From Vicinamibacteria bacterium (lineage in GTDB: Bacteria; Acidobacteriota; Vicinamibacteria; Fen-336): a DNA stretch of 36,089 nt. The notes under the pieces were generated by a model. That model was not told where the DNA came from. It saw nothing but the letters and a program-made list of their open reading frames with translations, and searched no databases. The translations under genes were made by a program, and so were the position numbers. The DNA lies in NCBI GenBank assembly GCA_023701125.1, contig JAMPXO010000045.1:1-36089 (forward strand). The letters run 5' to 3'. Positions 1 through 31,226 of the stretch are shown here, one piece after another (position 1 is the stretch's first letter; each line of letters begins with the position of its first letter).

Positions 1-1392
<1,392 letters not shown>

Positions 1393-1411
1393 GCCGGGCC
1401 CGTCGCGGCTT

Positions 1412-2956
1412 TCATCGCGTCCGGCGATCGGGGGGCTCCGCCTGCGGGTCAGGGTCGAGTCGCCCGCCGCGCAGCGCATAGAGTCGATAGCGGCGGGGCC
1501 CGACGTCCGTGGAGGGGAGTAGGGCGTAGCGTTCACGCAGCCAGGCGCCGAGCACGCGGTCGACCGGCAGCCCGCCACTCACGACCATCAGCACCGGGGG
1601 CTTCGCCTCCAGGTCGCGGCGCACGCGCCTGGCGAGTCGCCCCCGCAGCGGGCCCTGGATCAGCGGCATCGAGTAGATCACGCCGGTCGGCGGCCTGCGA
1701 CCGCTGTGGTAGTAGACGGCGGCGCTGTCGCCGTGGGCGTACAACACCTCGTCCCCGCGCAGTAGCGCCACGGCGTCGCGCGCCGCCTGCCGCGCCTCGA
1801 GGAACACTCGGCCGTACTTCTGCACGGACCACTCGTCGGGCGTGAGCGTGGAGTGCCTCGCCTGGACGCCGATCAGCGCGACGAGGGCGGCCGCGGCGCA
1901 CAGCCGCACCCGCCACGATCGCCACTCGCCCTCGCCGAGGTGGCGCAGCCCGAGACTCGCGGCCACCGCCAGCAGCGGCAGCCAGAGCTGGTAGTAGTGG
2001 GGGTGGTAGTGGCCCGGCGCGGCGACCGCGATCCACGTCGCGATCGCCCAGGCCGCGGCGAATCCCTCGACGCGGGTGACGGGCCGTCTCGCCCGCAGCA
2101 GCAGCAGGCCGCTCGCCGCGAACAGCGGCAGCACGTGGGTCAGGCTGCGCGACAGCAGGTGGTCCGGCGCGCGGCCGCGCCAGAGGTTCTCCAGCACGCT
2201 CCCCGCGTAGAAGCGGTTGTAGGCGACGATCGCGTCGGTGTAGTCGTCGAGGCGGCCCACGGCGGCGAAGTAGACGGCAGGCAGGGTGGGCACCGCGAGG
2301 GCGAGCCCGACGACGAGGCCCGCTTCGGCCAGGTCCCGGCGGCTCGGGCGCCTCGCCTGGCCGCCGCGGAGCAGGACGTGGGGCACGAGCAGGAGCAGTG
2401 CCGTCAGCGCCACCGGCTTGAACACGGCCGCCACGCCGAGCAGCAGCCCGGCGGCCGCGGCCCAGCGCCAGCGCCGGGCATCGGGCGCGTCCAGGGCGAG
2501 GGCCACCAGCACCCAGATCAGGCAGGCGTTGATGAAGGCCTCGACGTTGGGCTGGTTTGCCTCGAACACGAGGTGCCCGCAGACGGCGACCCAGAACGCC
2601 GCGGCCAGCCCGGCGGCGACGCGGTCGTGGCTCAGCAGGAGAGTGGCGACGTAGACGCCGACGAGGGTGGCCAGGGTTGCGGCCAGCCAGGCGAGGCACA
2701 GGCTCGCCGGGCCCGGGCCGGTGACGAGCTGCGCCGCGGCGTAGGCGAGGTGCACGCCCGGCGGCTTGTGGTCCCACAGGTCGGTGTAGAGCGCCCGGCC
2801 GTCGAGCAGGCCCTCCGCGATCACGGCATAGGCCGCGAGGTCGCGCTCGGGCGGCTCGCCGTAGGTGAGCGCGGCGCGCAGCACGACCAGCAGTGCCAGG
2901 GCGGCCAGAAGCCGCCAGTCCGGGCCCGGCCGCGACAGTCGGGGCTCAGCGTCCAC
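1412..2956 (-). CDS. GT39/PMT-like integral membrane glycosyltransferase
   Basis: This 514-residue protein is rich in hydrophobic segments: one at about residues 16-32 and many more to about residue 370, followed by a soluble C-terminal region. That is the plan of the ArnT/PMT (GT-C) family, which uses polyprenyl-phosphate sugars as donors on the outer face of the inner membrane. ERDLAAY at 37-43 places an acidic residue in the first periplasmic loop, where these enzymes carry a catalytic Asp. DHKPPG at 62-67 is a common signature of bacterial GT39-like proteins. The start is GTG at 2956, overlapping the end of the GT2 gene by 11 bases, so the two are probably translationally coupled. A GT2 enzyme that makes a lipid-linked sugar beside a GT-C enzyme that uses it is a sensible pair. 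The acceptor (glycan, lipid or protein) cannot be told. Confidence 0.85.
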   Translation of the reverse strand: MDAEPRLSRPGPDWRLLAALALLVVLRAALTYGEPPERDLAAYAVIAEGLLDGRALYTDLWDHKPPGVHLAYAAAQLVTGPGPASLCLAWLAATLATLVGVYVATLLLSHDRVAAGLAAAFWVAVCGHLVFEANQPNVEAFINACLIWVLVALALDAPDARRWRWAAAAGLLLGVAAVFKPVALTALLLLVPHVLLRGGQARRPSRRDLAEAGLVVGLALAVPTLPAVYFAAVGRLDDYTDAIVAYNRFYAGSVLENLWRGRAPDHLLSRSLTHVLPLFAASGLLLLRARRPVTRVEGFAAAWAIATWIAVAAPGHYHPHYYQLWLPLLAVAASLGLRHLGEGEWRSWRVRLCAAAALVALIGVQARHSTLTPDEWSVQKYGRVFLEARQAARDAVALLRGDEVLYAHGDSAAVYYHSGRRPPTGVIYSMPLIQGPLRGRLARRVRRDLEAKPPVLMVVSGGLPVDRVLGAWLRERYALLPSTDVGPRRYRLYALRGGRLDPDPQAEPPDRRTR

Positions 2957-3686
2957 GGCGCTCGCGCCGCGCCGCGATTGCGATCACCACGATCTCCACC
3001 AGCGCCCGCCACGCGGTGCGCCAGAGGCGCAGCCCGCGCAGCGCGCCGGTGGCGCTCGCCTTGCGCGCGACCGGCACGGGCAGCTCGACGACGCGCAGAC
3101 CCCGCGCGACCGCGAGGCCCGCGAGGGCGACGTTGGGGGCGAACGTGGAGGGCGGGATCGACGGCAGCAGCGCGTGCAACGTTTCGCTCCGGATCAGGCG
3201 AAACGGAACGTTCACGTCCCTCAGGCGAGCGCCGAACAGCATCCACGTCGCCAGCCGAGCCGCCGCGCTGACCTGGCGTCGGGCCGCGGACAGGTGGGCG
3301 ACGCTGCGCACGCCGAGCAGCAGGTCGGCTTCATCGCGTCGCCTCCAGAAGGGCTCGAACGCCGCGGCACCGATCTCGCCGTCGCCGTCCACCTGCAGCA
3401 GCCAGGCGCCGCGCGCTTCGCCGTAGCCGCGCAGGAGGGTGGGGCCGTGGCCGCGATTGGGGTGCGACAGCAGGACGAGGCTCGCGGGGCGCTGGGGCCA
3501 GGTCTCGAGCAGCGTTCGGCTGTCATCGGTGGAGCCGTCGTCGTACAGCCGCAGCTCGAAGCGCAACCCCAGGCGCCGCAACTCGTGATCCCACTCGGCG
3601 ACGACCTCGCGGATGCGCGCCGCCTCGTTGTGCACCGGCACCACGACCGACAGCTCGAGCAGGCCGTCGCTGCCGAGCGTGGTCAT
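2946..3686 (-). CDS. Family 2 glycosyltransferase (DPM/GtrB-like fold)
   Basis: The 246-residue protein has a GT-A fold signature: VVVPVHNEA at 14-22, DDGSTDDS at 49-56, and a DXD-type metal/nucleotide site DGDGE at 100-104. The first motifs match inverting family 2 enzymes such as polyprenyl-phosphate hexose synthases, and the C-terminal hydrophobic stretch (about 225-240) could anchor it to the membrane. I chose ATG 3686 because it forms a 4-base ATGA overlap with the stop of the upstream oxidoreductase. The longer frame upstream to 3845 lies inside that gene and encodes an Arg/Gly/Pro-rich stretch with no family resemblance. The likely role is transfer of a sugar from a nucleotide donor to a lipid carrier for the GT39-like protein encoded next. 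Donor and acceptor are unknown. Confidence 0.9.
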   Translation of the reverse strand: MTTLGSDGLLELSVVVPVHNEAARIREVVAEWDHELRRLGLRFELRLYDDGSTDDSRTLLETWPQRPASLVLLSHPNRGHGPTLLRGYGEARGAWLLQVDGDGEIGAAAFEPFWRRRDEADLLLGVRSVAHLSAARRQVSAAARLATWMLFGARLRDVNVPFRLIRSETLHALLPSIPPSTFAPNVALAGLAVARGLRVVELPVPVARKASATGALRGLRLWRTAWRALVEIVVIAIAARRERRGR

Positions 3687-4948
3687 GCTCCGGCCGCGAG
3701 CGCGCGGCCCGCGGCCAGGCCGTCGCGAATGGACTCGGCGATGCCCTGGAACTGCCAGCGCGCGTAGCGGCCCACCATGCGGACGCCGTTGGCCTCCAGG
3801 GCCGACAACGCCTCCGCGCGCCAGTTCGAGCGCGGCCACGCCCACGTGTAGGCCACGTCGATCCAGGTGGGGTCGACCACCTCGGCTTCACCGATGAACT
3901 GCCAGGCCTGCAACTCGGCGACCGTTTCGGCGCAAAGGCGCTCGACGGCCGGGCGCGCGGGCCGCTCGCCTCCCCGCCAGGCGAACTCGACGTAGAGGCT
4001 CGCGCGGTCCGGCCGCGCGGCGGGCGCGAAGTCGGGCGAGACGTTCGTGTAGAACCCGACACGGTGGAAGCCCGCGCGCGAGTCGGGCACGTAGAGCCAG
4101 TGATGGGCCGGGCATCGTGGACCTCGCGCCGCGCCGACGTTGATCACCAGCACGCTCGTGAACGGGTCGGGCCGCCCGGCCACCGCCAGCCCCGCGAGCT
4201 CCAGCGTGCGATTGAGCGGCAAGGTCGAGAGCAGGCGGCCGTAGCGCTCCACGCGGCCATCCGCGAAGCCGAGCGTCCGGGCCGCGGTGTCGATCGCCAC
4301 CACGCGGCTCCCGTAGCGGACGTCGGCCCGGTCCGCCATGCGCCGCGTGAGGTGGTCGAGGCCCCGCTCGGGGTAGAGGAAGTCGCCGTTGTAGCCGACG
4401 GGCGGCGACGCCGGCGGCTGCACCGCGGGAGCGGTCGGCGACTTGTAGGCGTCTTGAGAGGCGATCGTCGTCCACAGGCCCGCGGTGTATCGCTCGTGGA
4501 ACGGGCCGAAGAAGGCGGCGACGAGCGCGTCTCCGAAGCGATCCCGCAGCCAGCCCTGCATCGTGGCGTCGGGGGCGGGCTCCCGGGCGCCCATCTCCTG
4601 GCGGGCTCGCCGTGCGAGGTCCGCGGGCAACTGGTCGACGTGGAGCTGGAGCGGGTACGGCACGAAGCGGCCGTCCGCCGCGAAGTACACCGCGGAGTCC
4701 CGCGTGTAGCGTCGGCACGGGCTCAGGCCCTCGATGAAGCCGAGCGTCGCCGCGTCGCCGCCGAAGATCCAGTGCCCGCCGCCACGTTCGAAGCGGTACG
4801 CCGCCTCGGAGTCGCTCGCCCGGCGATGGTACGAGGAGCAGATGCCGCCCGGGTGCGACGTGGCCTCGTGGACGGGTGCTCCCGAGGCGATGCCGGCGGC
4901 GAGGCCGGTGACGCCAGCGCCCAGGACGTGGAGCGCGTCGGCGCTCAT
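3683..4948 (-). CDS. FAD-dependent amine-oxidase/UDP-galactopyranose-mutase-like protein
   Basis: The protein has 421 residues. It opens with a Rossmann dinucleotide-binding motif, GAGVTG at 10-15, and continues with HPGGICSSY and GGGHWIFGG motifs, which resemble the FAD-binding region of UDP-galactopyranose mutases and protoporphyrinogen-oxidase-like NAD(P)-binding proteins. YPERGLDHL in the middle is also typical of this group. In surface-polysaccharide clusters such proteins act on nucleotide- or lipid-linked sugars, and the downstream GT2 and GT39-like genes, coupled by overlaps, fit that setting. Whether it is a true mutase or a desaturase-like paralogue cannot be decided by eye. The ATG at 4948 is followed immediately by the Rossmann strand, so the start is good, although no strong Shine-Dalgarno sequence is seen. 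An 82-base gap separates it from the permease gene upstream. Confidence 0.82.
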   Translation of the reverse strand: MSADALHVLGAGVTGLAAGIASGAPVHEATSHPGGICSSYHRRASDSEAAYRFERGGGHWIFGGDAATLGFIEGLSPCRRYTRDSAVYFAADGRFVPYPLQLHVDQLPADLARRARQEMGAREPAPDATMQGWLRDRFGDALVAAFFGPFHERYTAGLWTTIASQDAYKSPTAPAVQPPASPPVGYNGDFLYPERGLDHLTRRMADRADVRYGSRVVAIDTAARTLGFADGRVERYGRLLSTLPLNRTLELAGLAVAGRPDPFTSVLVINVGAARGPRCPAHHWLYVPDSRAGFHRVGFYTNVSPDFAPAARPDRASLYVEFAWRGGERPARPAVERLCAETVAELQAWQFIGEAEVVDPTWIDVAYTWAWPRSNWRAEALSALEANGVRMVGRYARWQFQGIAESIRDGLAAGRALAAGA

Positions 4949-5030
4949 GGGGCGATGGGAATCGAGCGGGAGAGCAAGCTGGGAGCGGAGTGTAGCGCAC
5001 GGTCAACGCGCGCGGGTCGGCGGCAGCGCC

Positions 5031-7442
5031 TCAGCCCTCGCGCAGCACGGACGCGGCTGGAGTCAGCGCCGCGCGCCTGGCGGGCAGCGCCGTCGCCGCG
5101 GCGGCGAGTGTGGCCATCAGCGCCAGGGCGCCGAGCAACTCCATTGCGGTGAGGCCGGGCAGGCCCGGCAGCGACGCGCCGAGACCGCGGCCGAGGGCGA
5201 GCGCGGCCAGCGCGCCGGGGGCGGCGCCCAGCGCCACCACGCACAGCGTTTCTCGCGCCAGCAGCAGGCTCACGTCGCGCGGAGAGCCGCCCAGGGCCTG
5301 GCGCAGCGCGAACTCGCCACCCCGTTCGCGGCCGAGCGCGCTGAGCAGGCCGAACAGCCCCAGCCCCGCGAGGCCGAGTGCCAGCAGTGCGCCACCGCCC
5401 AGCACGCTGGCGGCCCGGGCGTGGCGTGAGAGCGCGCGCTGGCCGAGGGCCGTCAGCGGCTGCGGAGCGCGGATCGGCAACTGCGGCGCCAGCCGGCGGA
5501 CGCGGTCGCGGGCCGCGGCCGCGACCGCAACGGGCGCCGTGCCGTCCGCGGCGCGGACGACGAGGTGGACCCGGGTCAGCGCCTTGCGGTGCCACTGGGC
5601 CAGCGGCCTGTACAACTCGGCCGGCGGCGCCAGGCCCGGGCGCTCGTGCGGCGTGTCGGCGACGATGCCGACGATCGTGACCCAGTCGTCGTGGCCGTCG
5701 AGGCCGGTGCGCACCCGGCGCCCGATCGCGTCGACGCCGGGAAACACCTGGCGCGCGAGTGCTTCGTTGACGATCCCCACGCGCGGCGTGCCCACGCCGT
5801 CGCTGGCCGCGAAGTCGCGGCCGCGCAGCCGGGCGATGCCCATCGCTGCGAAGTAGCCCGGGCTCACGGCCCGCCATGCCGTGTCGGGGGACTCGTTGGG
5901 CGGGAACGTACGGCCCTCGACCACGAGGCCCGCGCCGGCCCCGGTGCCGGTCAGCGGCAGCCGGTCGGTGGCGCCCGCCGCCGTCACGCCCGGGGTCGCG
6001 GCCGCCACCTCCACCATCGAGCTGGCCAGCGCGCGCACCGCCTCCGGGGTCGTTTGCCGGGCCTCCGGCAGCCCCGCCTCGAAGGTCGCGGCTGCGCTGG
6101 CGTCGAAGCCCGCGCCGGTGTGCTCGAGCGTGACCAGCCCCCGCGCGGCCAGCGCCGCGCCGGCGGCCAGCGCGATGCCCGCCGCGACCTGGCCGGCGAC
6201 CAGCGCGCGCCGCAACGGGCCGGGGCCAGCGCCGGCTCCGACCGTGCGCCCGCGCAGCAGGGTGGACAGGTCGCCGCGCGCGTGGCGGGCGGAGAGCGCT
6301 GCGAGGCCGAGCGCGGTGAGCAAGGCCAGCGCCGCGCTGGCGCCGGCGGCGATCGGCAGCGGCAGCGGGACGTCGGCCTCGAGTCCCAGCCAGGGTGCGG
6401 CGACCCGCCCCGCCCCGCGGGCGATCGCGAGGCCGGCGACGCCGCCGACCATTGCGACGGCCGCGACCTCGATCCACAGCGGCGCCAGCGCGGCGGCGTC
6501 ACTCGCGCCCAGCGCGCGGCTGACCCCCGCCTCGCGCTGCGCGGCCGCGGCCCGGGCGACCAGCAGCAGCGCCACGTTCGCGGCGGCGACCAGCCACAGG
6601 GCGAGGGCGACGCCGCCGAGGGCCAGCAGCGCCGGGCGGCGGCGGCCGTGCAGGTCCTCGCGCAACGCCACGACCCGGGCGCCGACGCCCGCGTTCGTCC
6701 GTGGATGGGCAGCGCGCAGCCGCCCGGCCAGCGCGTCCATCTCGGCGCTCGCCTGCTCCAGCGGCACGCCGTCGCGCAGGCGGCCGAGCACGCCGAGGAA
6801 CCGTGCGTCGCGCAGGGTGGCGACGTCGATGCCCAGCGGGGTCTCCAGTTCGGGGACCGCGCCGCGCGCGGGCAGCCACAGCTCGCCGGGCGGGAACGGC
6901 AGGTCGGCCGCCAGCACGCCCACGATCCGCACGGGCTCGTCGCCGAGTTGGACGACGCGGCCGACGACGTCGGCGCCTGCGAAGGCGTCCCGCCACAGCC
7001 GGCGCGAGATCACGGCCTCGCGGGCGCCCGCGGGCTCCTGGCTCCAGCCGCTGCCGGCAGCGAGCGCGGGACGCAGCACGTCCAGGAACGACGGCGACGC
7101 ACTCAGCACCTCGACGCTGCGGGCCTCGCCAGCCCCGCTCAGCGTGCGCGACGACGTGCGCCACGCCGCGAGGCCGGCGAACGACCGCGCGTCGCGTTGC
7201 CAGTCGACGAAGTCCGCGGGGGCCACCGGTGTCGCCCCGTGTCGCGGGTGGGTTTCGTCCACCACGACCAGGCGCTCCGCCGCGCGATAGGGCAGCGGCG
7301 CCAGCAGCAGCGCCTGGGCGAGGGCGATCACCGCGGCGCCGCCGCCCAGGCCGAGCGCCAGGGTGAGTGCCCCGGCCAAGGCGAAGGACGGGTTGCGTCG
7401 GGTGCGGCGTGCGGCCTGGCGAAAGGCCATCTTCCAATTCAT
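5031..7442 (-). CDS. MacB/FtsX-type permease of the ADOP kind, short N-terminus
   Basis: The 803-residue membrane protein has the duplicated FtsX layout: a first transmembrane segment at about 20-45, a large extracytoplasmic MacB core domain (about 50-250), an FtsX domain of three helices (about 260-385), a second transmembrane segment followed by another periplasmic domain, and a final FtsX domain (about 690-800). The phrase ending in ALLLAPLPY near residue 50 is characteristic of these 'Acidobacterial duplicated orphan permeases', which lack an adjacent ATPase. Unlike the second ADOP in the window, it has no N-terminal helical region of about 85 residues and no PadR gene next to it. A Shine-Dalgarno-like GAGGAGCG lies just upstream of the ATG. 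The substrate is unknown. It may pair with an ATPase encoded elsewhere or work in mechanotransmission as MacB does. Confidence 0.88.
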   Translation of the reverse strand: MNWKMAFRQAARRTRRNPSFALAGALTLALGLGGGAAVIALAQALLLAPLPYRAAERLVVVDETHPRHGATPVAPADFVDWQRDARSFAGLAAWRTSSRTLSGAGEARSVEVLSASPSFLDVLRPALAAGSGWSQEPAGAREAVISRRLWRDAFAGADVVGRVVQLGDEPVRIVGVLAADLPFPPGELWLPARGAVPELETPLGIDVATLRDARFLGVLGRLRDGVPLEQASAEMDALAGRLRAAHPRTNAGVGARVVALREDLHGRRRPALLALGGVALALWLVAAANVALLLVARAAAAQREAGVSRALGASDAAALAPLWIEVAAVAMVGGVAGLAIARGAGRVAAPWLGLEADVPLPLPIAAGASAALALLTALGLAALSARHARGDLSTLLRGRTVGAGAGPGPLRRALVAGQVAAGIALAAGAALAARGLVTLEHTGAGFDASAAATFEAGLPEARQTTPEAVRALASSMVEVAAATPGVTAAGATDRLPLTGTGAGAGLVVEGRTFPPNESPDTAWRAVSPGYFAAMGIARLRGRDFAASDGVGTPRVGIVNEALARQVFPGVDAIGRRVRTGLDGHDDWVTIVGIVADTPHERPGLAPPAELYRPLAQWHRKALTRVHLVVRAADGTAPVAVAAAARDRVRRLAPQLPIRAPQPLTALGQRALSRHARAASVLGGGALLALGLAGLGLFGLLSALGRERGGEFALRQALGGSPRDVSLLLARETLCVVALGAAPGALAALALGRGLGASLPGLPGLTAMELLGALALMATLAAAATALPARRAALTPAASVLREG

Positions 7443-7538: not shown

Positions 7539-8882
7539 ATGCAGGTGTCTTGCCCCCATTGCAGTGGCCGGCTGACGGTGCCGGACGACCGGGCCGGGAA
7601 CCCGGCGCTCAAGGTTCGCTGCGGCGGCTGCAAGAACGTGTTCGCGCCGTTCGCTGCGGGGTCGGTGAGCGCGGCCGCGCCGACTCGTCCACCCGCGGCG
7701 GCGCTCGCCCCACGTCCGGTTCCAGTGCCTGCGGCGCCGGCTCCCACGCCGCCGCGACCAGCTGCGGCCCCTCGTCCTGCCGCGGCTCCGGTGCCCCGCG
7801 TGGCCAGTGCCGCCCCTGCTCCGCCGCGCGCGGCTGGCGCGGGCCAGTGGCGTCGCTGCGCGGCGCACCCGAAGGCGGCCTCCGACTGGTTCTGCGTGCG
7901 CTGCAACGCCGGTTACTGCGGAGCCTGCCCGCAGCGCGTGAGCCAGGCCGCGATCTGTCCCGGCTGCGACGGACCGCTGACCCCGGCCGCCGACCGGCTC
8001 GCGCACGAGGCGAAGGCCCGTGACCGCGCCCGCAGCATGCGCGACGAGGTCGCCTTCATCCTCCGCTACCCGCTCGTCGACGTGGCGGGCTACGCGATGC
8101 TGGCGGTCTTCGTCGGCATCTGCCGGGTGGTCGCGGCGATGGGCGGCGGCGGTGGCATGGGCGCGCTGTTGACCCAGGGCGTGCTGATGGCCTACTCGTT
8201 CAGCGCGCTGACCAAGACCGCCGGCGGCGACCGCAAGGCGTTCATGCCGCAGATCGACAACCCGCTCGACCTGGCGCTGCCGCTGCGGCTCGGTTTCGCC
8301 GCCGTCGTGATCAGCGCGGGCCCGCTGTTGGCGACCCTCCTGTTCACGCCGGCCGAGACGCTGGTCGCGTCCTCCTCGTACGAGGCGGTTGCCCATGCCC
8401 AGGAGCCGGCGCCCGCCGCCGCGGACGAGACGGGCGATGAAGGAGAGGAACTCGCGGCGGACGAGGCGGAGCAGGGGCCCGATGCCGCGGCCGCACCCGA
8501 GCCGGGCTTCGAGGCCTACGAGCCAGAGCCGACCGGCGTGCCCGCGTGGGCGTGGCTGCTGTTCGCGGTCTCGTTCGTGTGGTTCCTCGCCTATTCGCCG
8601 ATCGCGCTGATTGCGGCAGGACTCTCGCGCTCGGTGCTGCAGACGCTGAACCCGCTGGTCGGCCTCCACGCGATCCAGACCATGGGCGCCACGTACTGGC
8701 ACGCGGCGGCGCTGTACACGGGGCTCACGCTCGTCCAGGTCGTCGTCGGCTCGCTGCTCGAGTGGATCCCGCTGGCGGGCGTCTTCCTGCGCACGTTCCC
8801 GGACTGCTACCTGAGCCTGTGCATCGGCGCCACGCTCGGCCTGGCGGTGTTCAAGAAGGGACCCGAGCTCGGCTACGACTAG
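7539..8882 (+). CDS. MJ0042-type zinc-ribbon, B-box-like, multi-pass membrane protein
   Basis: This 447-residue protein has three visible parts. Residues 1-35 are a zinc ribbon of the MJ0042 kind, with C5/C8 and C28/C31 in a CxxC-x19-CxxC arrangement. A Pro/Ala-rich linker spans about 45-100. A second Cys/His cluster at 107-143 (C107, H110, C119, C122, C127, C130, C140, C143) resembles a B-box or double zinc ribbon. The rest is a membrane domain with hydrophobic segments near 183-225, 252-270, 336-361, 391-412 and 424-437, interrupted by an acidic Glu/Asp/Ala loop at about 285-330. The membrane part recalls Yip1/DUF4013-like proteins, but I cannot assign it firmly. The start is supported by AGGGAG seven bases upstream. 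It stands alone, divergent from the ADOP permease and 198 bases before the efflux operon. Function unknown. Confidence 0.85.
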   Translation: MQVSCPHCSGRLTVPDDRAGNPALKVRCGGCKNVFAPFAAGSVSAAAPTRPPAAALAPRPVPVPAAPAPTPPRPAAAPRPAAAPVPRVASAAPAPPRAAGAGQWRRCAAHPKAASDWFCVRCNAGYCGACPQRVSQAAICPGCDGPLTPAADRLAHEAKARDRARSMRDEVAFILRYPLVDVAGYAMLAVFVGICRVVAAMGGGGGMGALLTQGVLMAYSFSALTKTAGGDRKAFMPQIDNPLDLALPLRLGFAAVVISAGPLLATLLFTPAETLVASSSYEAVAHAQEPAPAAADETGDEGEELAADEAEQGPDAAAAPEPGFEAYEPEPTGVPAWAWLLFAVSFVWFLAYSPIALIAAGLSRSVLQTLNPLVGLHAIQTMGATYWHAAALYTGLTLVQVVVGSLLEWIPLAGVFLRTFPDCYLSLCIGATLGLAVFKKGPELGYD

Positions 8883-8929
8883 CGGCGTCGTTCGTCGCGG
8901 ATTCACGACGAGTGGCGTGAAACGCGACG

Positions 8930-8946
8930 GCGACCGCAGCGGTCGC
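8930..8946. promoter_or_regulatory. Perfect 8+8 palindrome, candidate activator (enhancer) site
   Basis: GCGACCGC and GCGGTCGC flank a single A, giving a perfect inverted repeat whose centre (8938) lies about 94 bases upstream of the transcription start predicted from the sigma-54 element at 9007-9020. That distance is usual for binding sites of Fis-type sigma-54 activators. A second, weaker inverted repeat (TCGTCG-N8-CGACGA, 8892-8911) lies further upstream and could instead belong to the 3' end of the preceding gene. Neither is followed by a T-run, so an intrinsic terminator is less likely. Confidence 0.4.
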
Positions 8947-9005
8947 GCCGCGTAGAAAGGGTCTGCAAGCCGGGGAACAGGCGGATCTGGGGTGAGGTGG
9001 CGACC

Positions 9006-9021
9006 CGGCACGGGGGTTGCC
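9006..9021 (+). promoter_or_regulatory. Sigma-54 (-24/-12) promoter of the RND efflux operon
   Basis: The bases read CGGCACG-GGGG-TTGCC, against the consensus TGGCACG-N4-TTGCW. The invariant GG (9007-9008) and GC (9019-9020) are exactly ten bases apart, and only the first T and the last W of the consensus are missed. The predicted start of transcription is about 9032, leaving a leader of roughly 49 bases with the ribosome-binding site GAAAGGA (9068-9074) before the ATG at 9081. The site lies in a true intergenic region directly upstream of a multigene operon, and the same window encodes a sigma-54 activator. Confidence 0.65.
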
Positions 9022-9080
9022 ATGAGTCGGGGCGAGGGCAAGCCGCGAGAGCGGCCTCGCCACGACCGAAAGGATCCCCC

Positions 9081-10229
9081 ATGCACCCCAGTCACCGGCG
9101 CCGCACGCGCCTCGTGTGCGGCCTCGCGCTGATCGCGGCCTCCGTGGCCTGCGGCGGAGCGCGCCCCGCCGCTGTGCCCGGCCCCGTCGAGGTCACCACG
9201 GTGACCGTGCAGCCCGAGCGCGTCGTGCTGACGACGGAGCTGCCCGGCCGCACGGCGCCCTACCTGGTCGCCGAGATCCGGCCCCGCGTCAACGGCCTGA
9301 TCCAGGAGCGCGCGTTCGAAGAAGGCGCCGACGTGCGGAAGGGCAGCCTGCTCTATCGCATCGATCCCGCGCCCTATCAGTCGGCCTACGAGCAGGCGAA
9401 GGCCGCGCTGGCCGTGGCCGAGGCCAACCTGCCCGCGGCGCGCTCGCTGTCCGAGCGGCTCGCGGGGCTGGCCGCGATCAGCGCGGTGGGCCAGCAGGAC
9501 GCCGACAACGCGGCCGCCGCTCTCGCCCGGGCCGAGGCCGCGGCGGACAGCGCGCGCGCGGTGATGGAGAGCGCCCGCATCCAGCTGGCCTACACGCCGC
9601 TGGAGGCGCCGATCTCGGGCCGCATCGGCCGCTCCGCGGTCACGGTCGGCGCGCTGGTCGCCGCCTACCAGCCCGTGCCGCTGGCCGTGATCCAGCAGCT
9701 CGACCCGATCTACGTCGACGTCACGCAGTCGTCCGCGGAGCTGCTCAAGCTGCGCCGGGCGCTGGCCAGCGGCGCGCTGACGAGCGCCAACGGCGCCATC
9801 CGCAAGGCCCGGCTGGTGCTCGAGGACGGCACGCCGTACGCGCACGAGGGCCGGCTCCAGTTCCGCGACGTCACCGTCGACCCGACCACCGGCTCGGTCA
9901 CGCTGCGGATGGTGTTCCCCAATCCCGAGCTGGTGCTGCTGCCCGGAATGTACGTGCGGGCCGTGATCGAGGAGGCGGCCCACGAGGCCGCGATCCTGGC
10001 GCCGCAGCAGGGCGTGACGCGCAACCCGCAAGGCGTGGCGACGGCGCTGGTGATCGGCGCGGACGGCACGGCCCAGGAGCGGCAGCTCGAGGTCGACCGC
10101 GCGATCGGCGACCGCTGGCTGGTGACGAAAGGGCTGGCCGCCGGCGACCGGGTGATCGTGGAGGGCCAGCAGAGGATCCGCCCCGGGGCGCCCGTCAAGG
10201 AGGCGCCGACCGCGGCGCCCGCGAAGTAG
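9081..10229 (+). CDS. RND efflux periplasmic adaptor (membrane fusion protein), lipoprotein
   Basis: The 382-residue protein belongs to the AcrA/MexA family that bridges an inner-membrane RND pump and an outer-membrane channel. A signal sequence ends in SVAC with the lipid-modified Cys at 24. It is followed by a barrel-sandwich segment (PGRTAPYLVAEIRPRVNGLI), an alpha-helical hairpin rich in Ala (about 100-165), and the returning lipoyl half TPLEAPISGRIGRS. ATG 9081 was chosen over the GTG at 8997 because it is preceded by GAAAGGA at six bases and begins a good lipoprotein signal, and because the sigma-54 element lies between the two. It is the first gene of the operon, with 12 bases to the pump gene. 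Substrates cannot be inferred; AcrAB/MexAB-like pumps export drugs, solvents and other amphiphiles. Confidence 0.94.
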   Translation: MHPSHRRRTRLVCGLALIAASVACGGARPAAVPGPVEVTTVTVQPERVVLTTELPGRTAPYLVAEIRPRVNGLIQERAFEEGADVRKGSLLYRIDPAPYQSAYEQAKAALAVAEANLPAARSLSERLAGLAAISAVGQQDADNAAAALARAEAAADSARAVMESARIQLAYTPLEAPISGRIGRSAVTVGALVAAYQPVPLAVIQQLDPIYVDVTQSSAELLKLRRALASGALTSANGAIRKARLVLEDGTPYAHEGRLQFRDVTVDPTTGSVTLRMVFPNPELVLLPGMYVRAVIEEAAHEAAILAPQQGVTRNPQGVATALVIGADGTAQERQLEVDRAIGDRWLVTKGLAAGDRVIVEGQQRIRPGAPVKEAPTAAPAK

Positions 10230-10241
10230 GGGAGCGACGCC

Positions 10242-13200
10242 ATGGCCCGCTTCTTCCTCGACCGCCCGGTCTTCGCGTGGGTGATCGCGATCGCGCTGAT
10301 GCTGTCGGGCGCGCTCGCGATCTACCACCTGCCGGTCTCGCAGTACCCGCCGATCGCGCCGCCTTCGATCGGCATCCGCGCGTTCTACGTCGGCGCCTCG
10401 GCCGAGACGGTCGAGAACAGCGTGGTCCAGATCATCGAGCAGAAGATGACCGGCCTCGACCGCATGATCTACATGCACTCGGTCGCCGACGCCTCGGGCA
10501 GCGCCGAGATCACGTTGACCTTCGCCCCCGGCACCGACGCCGACCTGGCCTGGGCCAAGGTCCAGAACAAGCTGCAGCTCGCCCTGCCCGCGCTGCCGGA
10601 GTCGGTGCAGCGCCAGGGCGTGACGGTGAGCAAGGCGACCCGCAACTACCTGCTGATCGTCGGCCTGGCCAGCGAGGACGGCCGGCTCAGCCGCGAGGAC
10701 CTGAACGACTACCTGGTGTCGAAGGTCGAGGCGGTGCTGGCCCGGGTGCCGGGCGTCGGCGACGTCGAGGTGTTCGGCACCGGCTACTCGATGCGGGTCT
10801 GGTTCGACCCCGACAAGCTGATGAAGTACGGGATGACATCGAACGACGTCGTGGCCGCAGTGCGCGCCTACAACGTCGAGGTCTCGGCCGGCCAGTTCGG
10901 CGGCGCGCCCGCCGTGCCCGGCCAGCGCCTCAACGCCTCGATCCTCGTCCAGTCGCTGCTGAAGACGCCGGAGGAGTTCGCGGCGATCCCGCTGCGCACC
11001 AACCCGGACGGCTCGGTCGTGCGCGTGCGCGACATCGGCCGCACCGAGCTCGGCACGGAGCTGCCCGACATCCGCATCTCCTTCGGCGAGGGCAAGCCGG
11101 CCTCGGCGCTGGCCATCCGCCAGGAAGCGGGGGCCAATGCGCTGGCGACCGCCGACGCCGTCAAGGCCAAGATGAAGGAGCTCTCCGCCGGCTTCCCGCC
11201 GGGCGTCAAGGTGATCTACGCGTTCGACACCAGCCCGTTCGTGCGGGTGGCGATCGGCGAGGTCGTGCGCACGCTGATCGAGGCCGTGGTGCTGGTGTTC
11301 TTCGTGATGTACCTGTTCCTCGGCAACCTGCGGGCGACGCTGGTGCCGACGATCGCGGTGCCGGTCGTGCTGCTGGGCACGTTCGGTGCGCTCGGCGCGC
11401 TCGGCTACTCGATCAACATGCTGACCATGTTCGCGATGGTGCTGGCGATCGGCCTGCTGGTCGACGACGCAATCGTCGTGGTCGAGAACGTCGAGCGGGT
11501 GATGTCCGACGAGGGGCTGCCGCCGCTGGAGGCGACCCGCAAGTCGATGGGCGAGATCCAGAGCGCGCTGGTCGGCATCGGCCTGGTGCTGGCCGCGGTG
11601 TTCGGCCCGATGGTCTTCTTCCCCGGCTCCACGGGCGTCATCTACCGCCAGTTCTCGGCGACGGTGATCGCCTCGATGCTGCTGTCCGTGGTCGTCGCGC
11701 TGGTGCTCTCGCCCGTGCTCTGCGCATCGCTGCTGAAGCCGGTGGCGAAGGGCCACGAGGCGGCGGAGACGGGCTCGCGGCGGCTGCGGCCGTTCTTCCT
11801 GTGGTTCGACCGCATGTTCTACCGGCTGCGCGATCGCTACCTCGCGTGGGTGACGCGCATCCTCGGCCACCGCGCGCGCTACGTGTTCGTGTTCGCGCTG
11901 ATCGTCGCCCTGCTCGGTGGCCTCTATTGGCGCATGCCCACCGGCTACCTGCCGGACGAGGACCAGGGCCTGCTGCTGACGATGGTGCAACTGCCGGTCG
12001 GCTCGACGCTGGAGCAGACCGAGGCCGTGATGGCACAGGTGCAGCGCCACTACCTCGTCGAGCAGAAGGAGGCGGTCGAGTCCTCGCTGTCGATCGCGGG
12101 CATGGGCTTCGCGGGCCGCGCCCAGAACCAGGGCATGGTCTTCGTGCGGCTGCAGGACTGGGAGCTGCGGCAGCGCCCGGACCTGCGCGCCAAGGCGATC
12201 GCGGGCCGGGCGATGCAGACGCTCGGCGCGATCCGCGGCGCGATCGTCTACTCGTTCCCGCCGCCGGCCGTGCCCGAGCTCGGCATCGCCACCGGCTTCG
12301 ACATGATGCTGCAGGACCGCGGCGACCTCGGCCACCAGGCGATGAGCGGCAAGCAGCTGCAACTGCTCGGCATGGCCGCCGCCGACCCGCGGCTGACCCG
12401 GGTGCGGCCCAACGGCATGTTCGACGTGCCGCAGTACAAGGTCGACATCGACTGGGAGAAGGCCGGCGCGCTCGGGGTGCCGGTCAGCGCGGTGCAGGCG
12501 TACCTCGCCACCACGTTCGGCAGCGCGTACGTCGGCAACTTCGTCCAGGGCGGGCGCGTCAAGCGCGTGTACGCGCAGGGCGACGCCCCGTCGCGGATGC
12601 TGCCGGGCGACCTCGAGCGGCTGCGGGTGCCGAACGTGCGCGGCGGGCTGGTGCCGCTCTCCGCGGTGGCCTCGGGGCGCTGGACCTGGGGCTCGCCGCG
12701 GCTCGAGCGCTACAACGGCTTCCCGGCGATGAACCTCCAGGGCGAGCCGTCGCCGGGCCACAGCTCGGGCGAGGCGATGGTCGCGATGGAGGAACTGGTC
12801 GGCCGGCTCGGCGCGGGCCTCGGCCTGGAGTGGACCGCGCTGTCCTACCAGCAGCGGATGTCGGAGTCGCAGGCCGGCCTGCTGTACGCCTTCTCGGTGC
12901 TGGTCATCTTCCTGGTGCTGGCGGCGCTGTACGAGAGCTGGACCGTGCCGATCACGATCCTGCTCGCGTTGCCGCTGGGCGTGATCGGTGGCGTCGCCGC
13001 CTCGTCGCTGCGCGGGATGACCAACGACGTCTACTTCCAGATCGGCCTGCTCACGGTGCTCGGGCTGACGACCAAGAACGCGATCCTGATCGTGCAGTTC
13101 GCGCAGGCCCACCGCGAGGAGGGCATGGAGCTGGTCGCGGCCACCTTGCAGGCGGCCCGGCTGCGGCTGCGGCCGATCCTGATGACCTCGCTGGCGTTCG

Positions 13201-13421
13201 GCTTCGGCGTGCTGCCGCTGGCGCTGGCCAGCGGTGCCGGCGCCGGCGCCCAGGCCGCGATCGGCACCAGCGTGCTCGGCGGCATGCTGACCGCGACCTT
13301 CCTCGCCATCCTGTTCATCCCGCTGTTCTACGTCGTGGTCGTCCGCCTGTTCGAGCGCCAGCCGGCCGCGGCCACCCTCGGCGCCCCGCCTGCGCAACCC
13401 GCGGCCGGGCAGGAGGTGTAG
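10242..13421 (+). CDS. RND multidrug efflux pump, HAE1 (AcrB/MexB-like) family
   Basis: At 1,059 residues it matches the full length of AcrB-type trimeric proton/drug antiporters of the inner membrane. MARFFLDRPVFAWVIAI is the canonical N-terminus. The proton-relay aspartates are D408 and D409 in GLLVDDAIVVVEN, equivalent to AcrB D407/D408, and the relay lysine is K945 in TTKNAILIVQF. Two large periplasmic loops follow TM1 and TM7, with NPDGSVVRVRDIGR in the first and GIATGFDMMLQDRG in the second, as in the family. A GGGGAGCG ribosome-binding site precedes the ATG. The gene is intact and sits between its adaptor and outer-membrane partner, which suggests one co-transcribed tripartite system. 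Confidence 0.97.
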   Translation: MARFFLDRPVFAWVIAIALMLSGALAIYHLPVSQYPPIAPPSIGIRAFYVGASAETVENSVVQIIEQKMTGLDRMIYMHSVADASGSAEITLTFAPGTDADLAWAKVQNKLQLALPALPESVQRQGVTVSKATRNYLLIVGLASEDGRLSREDLNDYLVSKVEAVLARVPGVGDVEVFGTGYSMRVWFDPDKLMKYGMTSNDVVAAVRAYNVEVSAGQFGGAPAVPGQRLNASILVQSLLKTPEEFAAIPLRTNPDGSVVRVRDIGRTELGTELPDIRISFGEGKPASALAIRQEAGANALATADAVKAKMKELSAGFPPGVKVIYAFDTSPFVRVAIGEVVRTLIEAVVLVFFVMYLFLGNLRATLVPTIAVPVVLLGTFGALGALGYSINMLTMFAMVLAIGLLVDDAIVVVENVERVMSDEGLPPLEATRKSMGEIQSALVGIGLVLAAVFGPMVFFPGSTGVIYRQFSATVIASMLLSVVVALVLSPVLCASLLKPVAKGHEAAETGSRRLRPFFLWFDRMFYRLRDRYLAWVTRILGHRARYVFVFALIVALLGGLYWRMPTGYLPDEDQGLLLTMVQLPVGSTLEQTEAVMAQVQRHYLVEQKEAVESSLSIAGMGFAGRAQNQGMVFVRLQDWELRQRPDLRAKAIAGRAMQTLGAIRGAIVYSFPPPAVPELGIATGFDMMLQDRGDLGHQAMSGKQLQLLGMAAADPRLTRVRPNGMFDVPQYKVDIDWEKAGALGVPVSAVQAYLATTFGSAYVGNFVQGGRVKRVYAQGDAPSRMLPGDLERLRVPNVRGGLVPLSAVASGRWTWGSPRLERYNGFPAMNLQGEPSPGHSSGEAMVAMEELVGRLGAGLGLEWTALSYQQRMSESQAGLLYAFSVLVIFLVLAALYESWTVPITILLALPLGVIGGVAASSLRGMTNDVYFQIGLLTVLGLTTKNAILIVQFAQAHREEGMELVAATLQAARLRLRPILMTSLAFGFGVLPLALASGAGAGAQAAIGTSVLGGMLTATFLAILFIPLFYVVVVRLFERQPAAATLGAPPAQPAAGQEV

Positions 13422-13423
13422 CC

Positions 13424-14875
13424 ATGAAGCGCTTCCTGCTCTTCGGCGCCGCGCTCGCACTCGCCGGCTGCTCGATGATCCCGAAGTACGACCGGCCGGC
13501 GGCCCCCGTGCCGCCGACCTGGTCGGCCGCGGAGGCCGCCCCGGCGACGGCCGCGAGCGTCGTCGAGACACCGTGGCGCGAGTTCTTCACCGAGCCGCGC
13601 CTGCGCTCGGTGATCGAGCTCTCGCTCGAGCACAACCGCGACCTGCGGGTGGCCACGCTGGCGATCGACCGCGCGAAGGCGATCCACCGCATCCAGGGCT
13701 CGGGGTTGACCCCGGGCCTCGGCATGCAGGCCGTGGGCGACGTCACCCGCATCCCCGAGAAGGTCGCCGAGGACGGCCAGGCCTACGACTCGAAGACGTA
13801 CTCCGTGCAGGTCGGCACGCTGGCCTGGGAGCTCGACCTGTTCGGGCGCATCCGCAGCCTGAAGGCGGCGGCGCTGGAGCAGTACATGGCCACGAGCGAG
13901 GCCCGCCGCGCGGCCCAGGTGTCGCTGGTCGCGGCCGTCGCCGCCACATGGCTTTCGGTAGCGGCCGACGCGGAGAACGTCCGCCTGTCCCGCTCCACGC
14001 TCGAGTCGCAACAGTCGTCGCTGGACCTGGTGCAGCGCAGCCGCGAGGCGGGCATCTCCTCGGACCTCGACCTGAGCCAGGCCCGCATCCAGGTCGAGTC
14101 CGCGCGCGCGGCGCTCGCCCGCTGGCAGGGGCAGCTCGCGATCGACCGCAACGCGCTCGACGTGCTGGCTGGCGGCGCGGTGCCCGCCGAGCTCCTGCCC
14201 GGCGGGTCTGGGGGCGGAGCCCCCAGCGGGCCTGGCGACGGGATTCACCCCCGGCGCCAGCCGCCCGATGACTGGGCGGACGTGGTCGACCCGAAGCTGC
14301 TCGCACCGGGGCTGCCCTCGGACGTGCTGCTGCTGCGGCCCGACATCCTGGCGGCCGAGCACGAGTTGCTCGCCGCCAACGCCAACATCGGCGCGGCCCG
14401 CGCGGCCTTCTTCCCGCGCATCTCGCTGACGGCCGCGTTCGGCACCATGAGCAAGGCGCTCGGCGACCTGTTCGGCGGCGGCACCCGGACCTGGATGTTC
14501 CAGCCGCTGGTCCAGGCCCCGCTGTGGGCCGGCGGCTACCAGCGCGCCAACCTGAAGGTGGCCCAGGTCGACCGCCAGATCGCGGTCGCCCGCTACGAGA
14601 AGTCGATCCAGGTCGCGTTCGCCGAGGTCGGCGACGGCCTCGCCCTGCGCGCCACGCTGGTCGCGCAGCGCCAGGCGCAGCAGGCGCTGGTCGATGCGCT
14701 GGCCGACAACCACCGGCTGCTGCTCGCCCGCTACGACGCCGGGCTCGACGGCCGTCTCGGCCTGCTGGTCGCCCAGCTCGGCCTGTTCAACGGCCAGCAG
14801 GCGCTGGTGGGCGTCCGCCTCGCGGAGCAGGCCAACCTGATCACCCTCTACAAGGCGCTGGGGGGCGGGGCGTGA
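13424..14875 (+). CDS. NodT/OprM-type outer-membrane efflux lipoprotein with an unusual in-frame insertion
   Basis: The 483-residue protein is the TolC-like exit duct of the efflux system. It has a lipoprotein signal with lipobox LAGC (Cys16), MIPKYDRP shortly after, two outer-membrane efflux repeats with long helices, and the family motif LPSDVLLLRPDILAAEHEL followed by NANIGAARAAFFPRISL. Just before that motif, about residues 258-283 form a Gly/Pro-rich stretch that I do not expect in relatives; it is encoded partly by a perfect hairpin at 14208-14226. The start at 13424 lies two bases after the pump's stop and has GGAGG upstream. The stop overlaps the GTG of the STAS-like gene (GTGA). Apart from the insertion the protein looks complete and functional. 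Confidence 0.94.
   Translation: MKRFLLFGAALALAGCSMIPKYDRPAAPVPPTWSAAEAAPATAASVVETPWREFFTEPRLRSVIELSLEHNRDLRVATLAIDRAKAIHRIQGSGLTPGLGMQAVGDVTRIPEKVAEDGQAYDSKTYSVQVGTLAWELDLFGRIRSLKAAALEQYMATSEARRAAQVSLVAAVAATWLSVAADAENVRLSRSTLESQQSSLDLVQRSREAGISSDLDLSQARIQVESARAALARWQGQLAIDRNALDVLAGGAVPAELLPGGSGGGAPSGPGDGIHPRRQPPDDWADVVDPKLLAPGLPSDVLLLRPDILAAEHELLAANANIGAARAAFFPRISLTAAFGTMSKALGDLFGGGTRTWMFQPLVQAPLWAGGYQRANLKVAQVDRQIAVARYEKSIQVAFAEVGDGLALRATLVAQRQAQQALVDALADNHRLLLARYDAGLDGRLGLLVAQLGLFNGQQALVGVRLAEQANLITLYKALGGGA
14208..14226. repeat. Perfect 8-bp hairpin inside the outer-membrane factor gene
   Basis: CTGGGGGC and GCCCCCAG pair perfectly around the loop GGA, and a further GCCCG (14197-14201) and CGGGC (14227-14231) could extend the structure. 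The element is in frame within coding sequence. Its core of twelve bases, GGCGGAGCCCCC (14213-14224), also occurs in reverse complement at 1431-1442 near the 3' end of the GT39-like gene. This suggests a small palindromic repeat family, but two partial copies are weak evidence. Confidence 0.5.
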
Positions 14876-15120
14876 TCCGGATCGACGCGGTGGCGCCGGG
14901 GCGAGTGCGGGTGATCGGCCGCCTCGAGGCGGCGGCACTGGACCTGCTCACCGAGGCCCTGGCCCACGGCGTGGTGGCGCTCGACCTGTCCGGAGTGGAG
15001 CAGGCCGACGAGAACGCCGTGAGGCTGTTGGCGGCGCTGCCGCCCGAGCGGGTGATGGTCGAGCACTGTCCGACCTGGCTCGAGTTGTGGATCGAGCGCG
15101 AGCGCCGCGGTCCGGGCTAG
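14872..15120 (+). CDS. Small STAS-domain-like protein
   Basis: An 82-residue protein starts at GTG 14872, overlapping the stop of the outer-membrane factor gene by four bases (GTGA), which implies translational coupling. It has the alternating strand/helix pattern of a STAS domain: IGRLEAAALDLLTEAL, then a hydrophobic strand with the conserved turn VVALDLSGVEQADENAVRLL, then VMVEHCPTWLELW. STAS domains are found in anti-sigma-factor antagonists and in MlaB of the phospholipid-transport complex. In antagonists a Ser/Thr after the Asp of the turn is phosphorylated. Here the corresponding segment reads ADENA and offers no Ser, so phospho-switching is unlikely. It may be an accessory or regulatory subunit of the efflux system. 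Its stop TAG shares the palindrome CTAG with the stop of the opposing PAP2 gene. Confidence 0.7.
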   Translation: MIRIDAVAPGRVRVIGRLEAAALDLLTEALAHGVVALDLSGVEQADENAVRLLAALPPERVMVEHCPTWLELWIERERRGPG

Positions 15121-17670: not shown

Positions 17671-18874
17671 TGCCGAACCGCATCAGCAGCCGCGTGCCGT
17701 CGGGGCCACCGACGGCCACCTCGGCGCGGAAGAAGACGTTCGACAGCAAGCCGACGCGCAGGCCGCCGCCCCAGTCCTGGTGCCAGTCGCCGAGGTCGCC
17801 GAGCCGGGGACCGACCGTGCCGGTCTCGTAGAAGAGCACGGCGCCGAGCACCGCGTTGAGGTCCCAGCGGTACTCCGCCTGCAGCAGCGCCGCGTTGCGG
17901 TCGCGCAGCCGCCACGGGATCAGGCCGCGCAGCGAGTCGGGGCCGCCCAGCGCCGGTTGCAGGTAGAACGGCACCTCGTGCCCCGCGTCGGGGCGCACCC
18001 CGACCAGTTGGCCGCGCAGCGCGAGCGTGCGCGTGCTGCCGAGCACCGGCAGGTACTGGCGCAGGTCCAGGTTCCAGCGCTGGAACGACCAGGCGCCGGG
18101 GTCGTTGTCGAGGACGCGGTCCCACGCGACCGTGTAGCGGCCCCCGTAATGGGGGCCGAAGGGCCGGTCGGTCGAGTCGAGCGAGGCCCGCAGTCCCAGC
18201 CGCACGAGGTCCGGGTTCGCGCCCAGGCCGGGCGCGGTCACCGGCGTGAACACGTCCTCGATCGACGGCACCTCGGGGTCGCGGCCCGAGCTCTGGCCGA
18301 CGAACGAGTACTCGACCTGGGCCGAAACCGACGTGCGGCGGGTCGGGACGACGCCGAACGAGCCGCCGATCGTGGTCGCCCGCAGCGAGTAGCTGGTCAG
18401 GTCGGACTTCGTCGACTGCGGCCCGAGGCCGTAGAAGTCCTCCTGCGTGTACTCGCGGCGGTTGATCGACACGTCGCCGAAGACCCGGGTCCTGCCCTGG
18501 CTGGTCAGCGCCAGCGTCGCGTCCGTCTGCCAGTAGCCGCGGGTCGAGGCCGCGCCGCGCAGGGTCAGGTCGACGTGGTGGTCCGAGTGGCGGAACGCCG
18601 GGCCGGCTGCGATGCCCGCGCCGTAGGGGAAGGCCCCGGACCACGGGAACAGGCCGCGCGGCGGGTTGAGCAGGCGCTCCAGCCAGTAGCGGTTCTCGAA
18701 GTTGTAGAGCAGCGTCTCCACCCGCGAGCGCTCGGGCGGGTGGAGCGCGGCGGCCTTGGCGGCCCGTTGCCGCTCGAGCAACGCGGCCCGTGACTCCTCG
18801 GCGTCGACGGCGGCGGGCCACAAGAGCAGCGCCGCGGCCAGCCAGAAGAGCATGGGCGAGGCTATTCGCGCCAC
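17660..18874 (-). CDS. Omp85/BamA-superfamily outer-membrane beta-barrel without POTRA domains
   Basis: The 404-residue protein has a signal peptide ending at about VDA (25) and then goes almost directly into amphipathic beta-strands. GGPDSLRGLIPWRLRDRN (310-327) contains the SLRG version of the VRGF/Y motif of barrel loop 6, followed by the strand LLQAEYRWDL, and the chain ends in RFGNVF with a C-terminal Phe, as BAM substrates do. FYGLGP (147-152) is common in bacterial surface-antigen-type Omp85 proteins. A full BamA has several N-terminal POTRA domains; here there is room for none, so it is a barrel-only member, possibly a transporter or a patatin/lipid-linked type. The start is GTG 18874; ATG 18853 would shorten the signal peptide and remove its only basic residue. 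It lies ten bases after the activator gene and overlaps the kinase-like gene. Confidence 0.85.
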   Translation of the reverse strand: MARIASPMLFWLAAALLLWPAAVDAEESRAALLERQRAAKAAALHPPERSRVETLLYNFENRYWLERLLNPPRGLFPWSGAFPYGAGIAAGPAFRHSDHHVDLTLRGAASTRGYWQTDATLALTSQGRTRVFGDVSINRREYTQEDFYGLGPQSTKSDLTSYSLRATTIGGSFGVVPTRRTSVSAQVEYSFVGQSSGRDPEVPSIEDVFTPVTAPGLGANPDLVRLGLRASLDSTDRPFGPHYGGRYTVAWDRVLDNDPGAWSFQRWNLDLRQYLPVLGSTRTLALRGQLVGVRPDAGHEVPFYLQPALGGPDSLRGLIPWRLRDRNAALLQAEYRWDLNAVLGAVLFYETGTVGPRLGDLGDWHQDWGGGLRVGLLSNVFFRAEVAVGGPDGTRLLMRFGNVF

Positions 18875-18884
18875 CGGCCCGGCG

Positions 18885-20504: not shown

Positions 20505-20508
20505 GGGC

Positions 20509-21135
20509 TCAGGCCCCCGGCGGGGCCGGCTGCGGGATCGGCTCCCACTGGATCTCCATCTCGCAGCACGGGGCGCCCTCGGAGGCGCAGCCGAGTGGCC
20601 GCGCGCGGGCCCGCAACTCCGGGGTCGACAGCAGGCCCTCGAACGCGCCCAGGGTGCGCTGCCACAGCAGTGGCGTGCATGGGAACTCGGTGATGCGGAC
20701 CCGGCAGTGGAGCGGGCCCAGGCGCTCGATCGCGAGCTTGCCGACGTCGAAGATCGTGCGCCACAGCACCTGGCCCATCCGCATCGCGGCGTCAGGGGTC
20801 GCGACCATCGGGCCGTAGCCGCCGCGGCTGCGCTCGCGGGCGCCGGCGAACTCGCCCAGGCGGCGCGCGAAGCCCGGGTCGTCCGCGGCGAAGCGCCGCT
20901 GCGCGGCCTCGAGCCAGATCAGGAAGTCCGCGAGCGGCTCCCACGACGCCTCGCGCAACTGGGCGACGAAGGTCGCGCGCCGCCCGACGCTCAGGTCGCG
21001 CAGCACCAGGTCCGGGGCCGCGGCGCCGTACTGCTCGCGCAGGAACGCGATCGCGTTCATCACCACGACGCCGCGCACCTTGCCCGCGACCTGGACCCGG
21101 GGCGTCAGCCCCGGCCGCGGCGTGCGCCGGCTCAA
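20509..21135 (-). CDS. DUF2378/TIGR02265-like protein
   Basis: A 208-residue protein is predicted from a TTG at 21135 that overlaps the rarA stop by four bases (TTGA). The alternative ATG at about 21059 would cut off the segment VAGKVRGVVVMNAIAFLREQYGA, whose KxRG start looks conserved, so I prefer the TTG with moderate confidence. The rest shows helices with SWEPLADFLIWLEAAQRRF, an RLGEFAG stretch, and a Cys-bearing C-terminal part. The general pattern resembles TIGR02265/DUF2378, a family known mainly as multiple paralogues in myxobacteria with no established function. The C-terminus holds three Cys (GCASEGAPCCEM), which could bind metal. It sits between rarA and the sigma-54 activator, so it might be a sensor partner of the latter. 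Confidence 0.6.
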   Translation of the reverse strand: MSRRTPRPGLTPRVQVAGKVRGVVVMNAIAFLREQYGAAAPDLVLRDLSVGRRATFVAQLREASWEPLADFLIWLEAAQRRFAADDPGFARRLGEFAGARERSRGGYGPMVATPDAAMRMGQVLWRTIFDVGKLAIERLGPLHCRVRITEFPCTPLLWQRTLGAFEGLLSTPELRARARPLGCASEGAPCCEMEIQWEPIPQPAPPGA

Positions 21136-30968: not shown

Positions 30969-31226
30969 GTGAGTCCAGGCCCGTGGACGCGCGCACCCGA
31001 ACGCTCCCGGGGCCGCAACTCGGGGGTGCCGCCTGCCGCCGGGCGCTCCGGCTCGGGAAAGTCGCCGTCCTGACCGAAGACGGCATTCTTCTTGCTGCGT
31101 GGCTGTCCGGGACTCTGGAGCCCGGCCGGCGCCGCGCCCGGTCGCGGCGATGCGGCGGAACCTGCGGTGGCGCGCGAATGCTGCACCCCGCCCGTGCCGC
31201 CCCGGCGCTGCCTCCGGGAGGACACC
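30969..31226. other. Leader region upstream of the phosphofructokinase operon
   Basis: The whole gap between padR (start 30889) and the PFK gene (start 31227) is 337 bases. Beyond the PadR repeats, the remaining part shows no convincing gene. It holds a modest stem (GCCGTC 31064-31069 with GACGGC 31079-31084) followed by ATTCTTCTTG, which might be part of a leader or a weak terminator. I see no clear promoter for the plus-strand operon, although one should lie here. No riboswitch is recognisable. Confidence 0.4.

Follow-up and report, generated by a model that had tools for sequence, protein, structure and literature searches.

The window, by which we mean the whole 36,089-nucleotide stretch of DNA analysed here, carries an adaptor-RND-OMF-STAS operon which, with a probability of about 0.66 judged from sequence, is transcribed from a sigma-54 promoter at 9007-9020 and has the enhancer-binding protein (EBP) encoded at 18885-20504 as its likeliest activator. 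The promoter element, an rpoN gene, the EBP, the gene content, the near-exclusivity of TetR and EBP genes beside related pumps and the absence of both blocks (operon and EBP gene) from two sibling genomes were all observed directly. Counting against the model are the absence of the exact element from the closest orthologs, the location of the EBP gene 9.8 kb away instead of next to the operon, and approximately 27 other EBPs in the genome. Under the proposed mechanism, RNA polymerase-sigma-54 would be held at the promoter as a closed complex until opened by an EBP, most likely the GAF-EBP of 18885-20504 acting through DNA looping from a putative enhancer within 8883-9000, and the operon (9081-15120) would then be read from a start near 9032. 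The pump would thus be induced when the GAF domain senses its signal, and not by relief of TetR repression.

The operon and the gene preceding it are organized as follows:

7539-8882, + strand: zinc-ribbon membrane protein (Pfam), upstream gene outside the operon, kept in both same-genus genomes
9081-10229, + strand: periplasmic adaptor lipoprotein of the RND pump (Pfam HlyD_D23 and CusB domains; lipobox)
10242-13421, + strand: RND inner-membrane pump of the AcrB family (Pfam ACR_tran, 1152 bits)
13424-14875, + strand: outer-membrane channel lipoprotein, TolC/OprM type (Pfam OEP, 6.5e-37; frame from GC3)
about 14872-15120 (start inferred), + strand: small STAS-like protein, last operon gene (Pfam STAS_2, E 5.8e-4)

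The adaptor, RND and outer-membrane channel genes are consecutive, as expected of a tripartite RND efflux operon, and the nearest relatives of this operon come from Acidobacteriota, which makes an acidobacterium, possibly from the class Thermoanaerobaculia, the likeliest host. The adaptor start at 9081 is backed by a Shine-Dalgarno-like AAGGA and by a lipoprotein signal peptide (...SVAC|G). The channel and STAS-like genes, both absent from the listing of the initial annotation, complete the operon, while the ORF at 13573-14271 was rejected as a gene by GC3, the true frame being that of the channel. Since the STAS_2 score of the last product (20.4 bits) is under the Pfam curated cut-off of 29.2, we refer to it as STAS-like only. 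Elsewhere in the window, two MacB/FtsX-type permease genes (5031-7442 and 27906-30560) are partly similar to each other.

Two features were localized in the 198-base gap (8883-9080) upstream of the adaptor gene:

8930-8946, unstranded: perfect 8+8 dyad GCGACCGC-A-GCGGTCGC, a candidate enhancer site or a 3' hairpin of the upstream transcript
9007-9020, + strand: -24/-12 sigma-54 promoter core GGCACG-GGGG-TTGC (GGCACGGGGGTTGC), with exact GG-N10-GC spacing

The near-consensus -24/-12 element described in the initial annotation was borne out, with 60 bases separating the GC end of the -12 from the adaptor ATG. It is the sole exact core match in the window when both strands are scanned, and a chance + strand occurrence of the exact core in the gap is improbable (P = 1.5e-4, 20,000 dinucleotide shuffles). 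Against the TGGCACG-N4-TTGCW consensus the element scores 10/12 with an exact core, the mismatches falling only at the outermost positions: a C for T before GG, which is common among the other exact cores of this genome, and a C for A/T after GC, which is rare. No sigma-70-like site was found in 8700-9200, and no terminator-like site between the upstream gene and the adaptor gene. Directly after the inferred start, a strong hairpin (9031-9061, GGCGAG..GCCGC-gaga-GCGGC-CTCGCC) folds no better than shuffled sequences; it was rejected as an intrinsic terminator or attenuator, having no T-run and a fold z-score of -1.0.

The genome encodes one rpoN and about 28 convincing sigma-54 EBPs. Exact -24/-12 cores number 25 genome-wide, versus 8 for a reversed-pattern control. 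According to a crude gene caller, 14 of the 25 are promoter-positioned, that is, before a same-strand gene start, compared with none of the eight controls; the same caller classed 9 of the 25 as coding. One of the 14, TGGCACG-TGGG-TTGCT (G000:C154:39931-39944), precedes a pilA-like type IV pilin gene (GFTLIELL) located 3' of an EBP gene. Since pilA is a textbook case of sigma-54 control, the same core rule recovers an expected sigma-54 target. A sigma-54 promoter of pilA has also been reported in the Nla28 study (PMC9765219).

RND pumps are usually described as repressor-controlled. The initial annotation had taken control by TetR or MarR repressors as the common arrangement of AcrAB-type pumps. 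Among the relatives of this pump, a TetR-like gene lies at most 1.8 kb upstream in 64 of the 87 operons whose upstream sequence is long enough. No TetR-like frame was found within 1.8 kb upstream of the window operon. Sorted by linked regulator, eight related operons had an EBP only, 57 a TetR only, one had both and 15 had neither (Fisher P = 1.1e-4, a value that ignores shared ancestry). Because a 12 kb downstream limit was used for the window operon, we repeated the test without this operon (P = 3.5e-4, again ignoring shared ancestry). Mapped onto the adaptor tree, the EBP label required eight changes for eight rows, at least five of them forced by well-supported branches; EBP-linked operons are hence not one inherited group. 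An EBP in place of TetR is a minority arrangement, seen repeatedly at related pumps of both Acidobacteriota and Verrucomicrobiota. The EBP-linked loci other than the window are arranged as follows:

L032: EBP divergent from STAS-adaptor
L059: EBP-STAS-adaptor, in line
L148: EBP-adaptor
L077, L085, L090 and L093 (Verrucomicrobiota): thioredoxin gene upstream of the adaptor, with a divergent EBP gene

Strong -24/-12 matches, defined as at least 10 of 12 consensus positions within 1.1 kb upstream, were found in four of the eight EBP-linked operons (three of seven with the window excluded), in 1 of 57 TetR-linked operons and in 1 of 15 others. The sites of L077, L090 and L093 are unlikely to be fortuitous (shuffle P ≤ 0.001), and the candidates of the other Acidobacteriota EBP-linked operons (L032, L059, L148) are weak (P 0.16-0.24). 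Between the EBP gene and the STAS-adaptor-RND operon of L059, three 14-base inverted repeats GCCAAT-N4-TGGC (3453-3499) stand 85-131 bases before a weak -24-like element, an arrangement matched in 0 of 5,000 shuffles. By analogy with known arrangements, this triple repeat is likely a triple EBP enhancer. Judged on arm length alone, the dyads upstream of L032 and L059 were not significant. In the four Verrucomicrobiota loci, the EBPs have a cysteine-rich N-terminal region and the divergent thioredoxin gene, upstream of the RND pump, has a -24/-12 element, which suggests thiol or redox control of these loci.

Conservation of the GG/GC pair in orthologous promoters, a check proposed in the initial annotation, gave a formally negative result: the pair is absent from most of them, and the exact element from the closest orthologs. 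These orthologs carry TetR, however, and therefore appear to be controlled differently. The -24/-12 match could be accidental, with the operon transcribed from a sigma-70-type promoter that escaped recognition or through read-through from the 7539-8882 gene; this would agree with the missing element in most orthologs, the cores classed as coding and the lack of a terminator-like site ahead of the adaptor. We consider it distinctly improbable in the face of the shuffle result in the gap, the concentration of exact cores at promoter positions, the absence of a sigma-70-like site from 8700-9200 and the recurrent linkage of TetR-less relatives to EBPs. The 15 related operons with neither regulator nearby leave room for another regulator, such as a two-component system or a TetR encoded far away, sigma-54 then serving a minor second promoter; with no TetR adjoining the window operon and no competing promoter seen in 8700-9200, this is very unlikely. 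Sigma-54 control of the pump is, in contrast to these alternatives, well supported in silico by the presence of rpoN, the promoter-concentrated cores and the exchange of TetR and EBP in related pumps, and we regard it as very probable.

The proposed activator and the blocks that are missing from the same-genus genomes (G001 and G002) are:

18885-20504, - strand: GAF / sigma-54 AAA+ / HTH_8 (Fis-type) EBP, proposed activator (Pfam; GAFTGA and Walker A intact)
8884-15116, unstranded: block of the 198-base control region and the whole pump operon, lacking at the corresponding position of both same-genus genomes
18797-20544, unstranded: second block missing from both same-genus genomes (EBP gene only)

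The Pfam domains, the GAFTGA motif and the Walker A motif establish the GAF-type sigma-54 activator of the initial annotation as genuine. In G002:C84 and G001:C16, window position 8883 abuts 15117 with 3 bases between, and in both genomes 18796 joins 20545, with flanks of 74-82% identity in an otherwise collinear stretch. By these junctions, G001 and G002 lack precisely the operon block and precisely the EBP gene, and searches of the remainder of both genomes gave no close copy of the one or the other. The pattern corresponds to two gains here or to two losses in the siblings, either direction being compatible with it. As approximately 3 of 17 other nearby window genes are also missing from G002, the shared absence alone is modest evidence for pairing. 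Other differences with G002 include the region 1391-5030, which is unmatched at the syntenic position, and about 3 kb of extra sequence in G002 at 30973-31151.

In a tree of AAA+ domains, the window EBP falls in a 14-row group (support 92/93) together with all eight EBPs located beside related pumps. This group takes in only 1 of the 27 other EBP rows of the same genome, namely a NorR-like protein encoded next to ScdA and NO reductase, and also includes NorR-type and PAS-type EBPs that are not beside pumps. The NorR-like gene is divergent from ScdA/RIC and quinol nitric oxide reductase genes (L207, G000:C128, 13955-18740). No star marks the position of the window EBP within the tree, and the rows nearest to it are EBPs of G007, from the same family, and not the pump-linked ones. 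These nearest relatives are two PAS-type EBPs. The gene for one of them has as its neighbour the nearest relative of the STAS-like gene that ends the window operon, and the two STAS-like products share 37% identity (E 4e-9). Small STAS-like proteins recur beside one EBP subgroup, whether or not an RND pump is present, at the following loci:

Window, 14872-15120
L059, 3625-3933
L201 (G068:C31), about 8478-8792
L193 (G007:C27), 6184-6483

A role for the small STAS-like protein as a signalling partner of the EBP is possible.

The action of this activator on the operon, put forward in the initial annotation, gained from the shared presence and absence, the pump-linked EBP group and the EBP-STAS pairing; the part that made the palindrome its binding site was not established. 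The palindrome is indeed a perfect 8+8 dyad, centred about 94 bases 5' of the inferred transcription start; enhancers bound by an EBP are expected 80-200 bases upstream. It is barely above chance in this GC-rich gap (shuffle P = 0.064 for arms of 8 and loops of 0-8; 0.018 for loops of 0-2), and no equivalent sequence was found elsewhere. Being present as a single exact copy in the genome, with near-copies little above control, it was not supported as a genome-wide repeated enhancer. As an intrinsic terminator or attenuator it was rejected, given the absence of a T-run and a fold z-score of -1.8.

With no diagnostic enhancer sequence, the activator gene 9.8 kb off and some 27 other EBPs encoded in the genome, the sigma-54 promoter might be activated by a different EBP, that of 18885-20504 serving other genes. 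We find this unlikely, since the operon and the 18885-20504 gene share their presence and absence, the product belongs to the pump-linked group and an EBP-STAS pair occurs in G007. The EBP of 18885-20504 is thus probably the activator of the operon. More tentatively, a control module made of an EBP from one subgroup and a small partner protein, mobile or repeatedly assembled, may have replaced TetR several times at the same RND pump family; the partner, STAS-like in Acidobacteriota and thioredoxin in Verrucomicrobiota, might then be part of the signalling to the EBP.

If true, a recurrent ATP-driven sensory activator switching on the pump would imply that off-states are tight and that different signals act as inducers, in phyla whose efflux control has hardly been studied. 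The exchange is directly testable, given that closely related pumps occur in TetR-type and EBP-type versions.

Sigma-54 control of RND pumps is already known in Myxococcus, and the window operon would represent a variant of it. In the Nla28 regulon of Myxococcus xanthus, the RND family efflux MXAN7147 and the CusAB-type MXAN989 have reported sigma-54 promoter elements, are bound by the EBP in vitro and are induced by starvation (PMC9765219). In an rpoN mutant of Paraburkholderia phymatum, expression rose for several RND genes and fell for one RND outer-membrane lipoprotein gene (PMC5979394). A cross-phylum sigma-54 survey mentions neither RND pumps nor Acidobacteriota (PMC12316311), and efflux is not mentioned in the Desulfovibrio sigma-54 regulome. 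The open-access literature gave us no account of a dedicated EBP-STAS-RND unit, or of STAS with an EBP.

The window resembles the Nla28 regulon in having an RND-type operon with a sigma-54 promoter element, and a candidate EBP for it. However, the EBP Nla28 belongs to the response regulators of two-component systems and governs a broad regulon, whereas the window EBP is a one-component GAF protein, apparently coupled to one pump and one STAS-like gene. With the TetR-controlled operons of the AcrAB-TolC or MexAB-OprM type, the window operon shares its adaptor-RND-OMF content and protein homology, and its nearest orthologs, 58-68% identical in the adaptor, belong to this TetR-controlled type; it differs from them in having no adjacent TetR and a sigma-54 promoter instead. 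Finally, the window EBP has the GAF-AAA+-HTH_8 layout and the AAA+ tree group in common with NorR-type GAF-EBPs, but its neighbours are not NO-detoxification genes, unlike the ScdA/RIC and quinol NO reductase genes beside the NorR-type EBP of C128.
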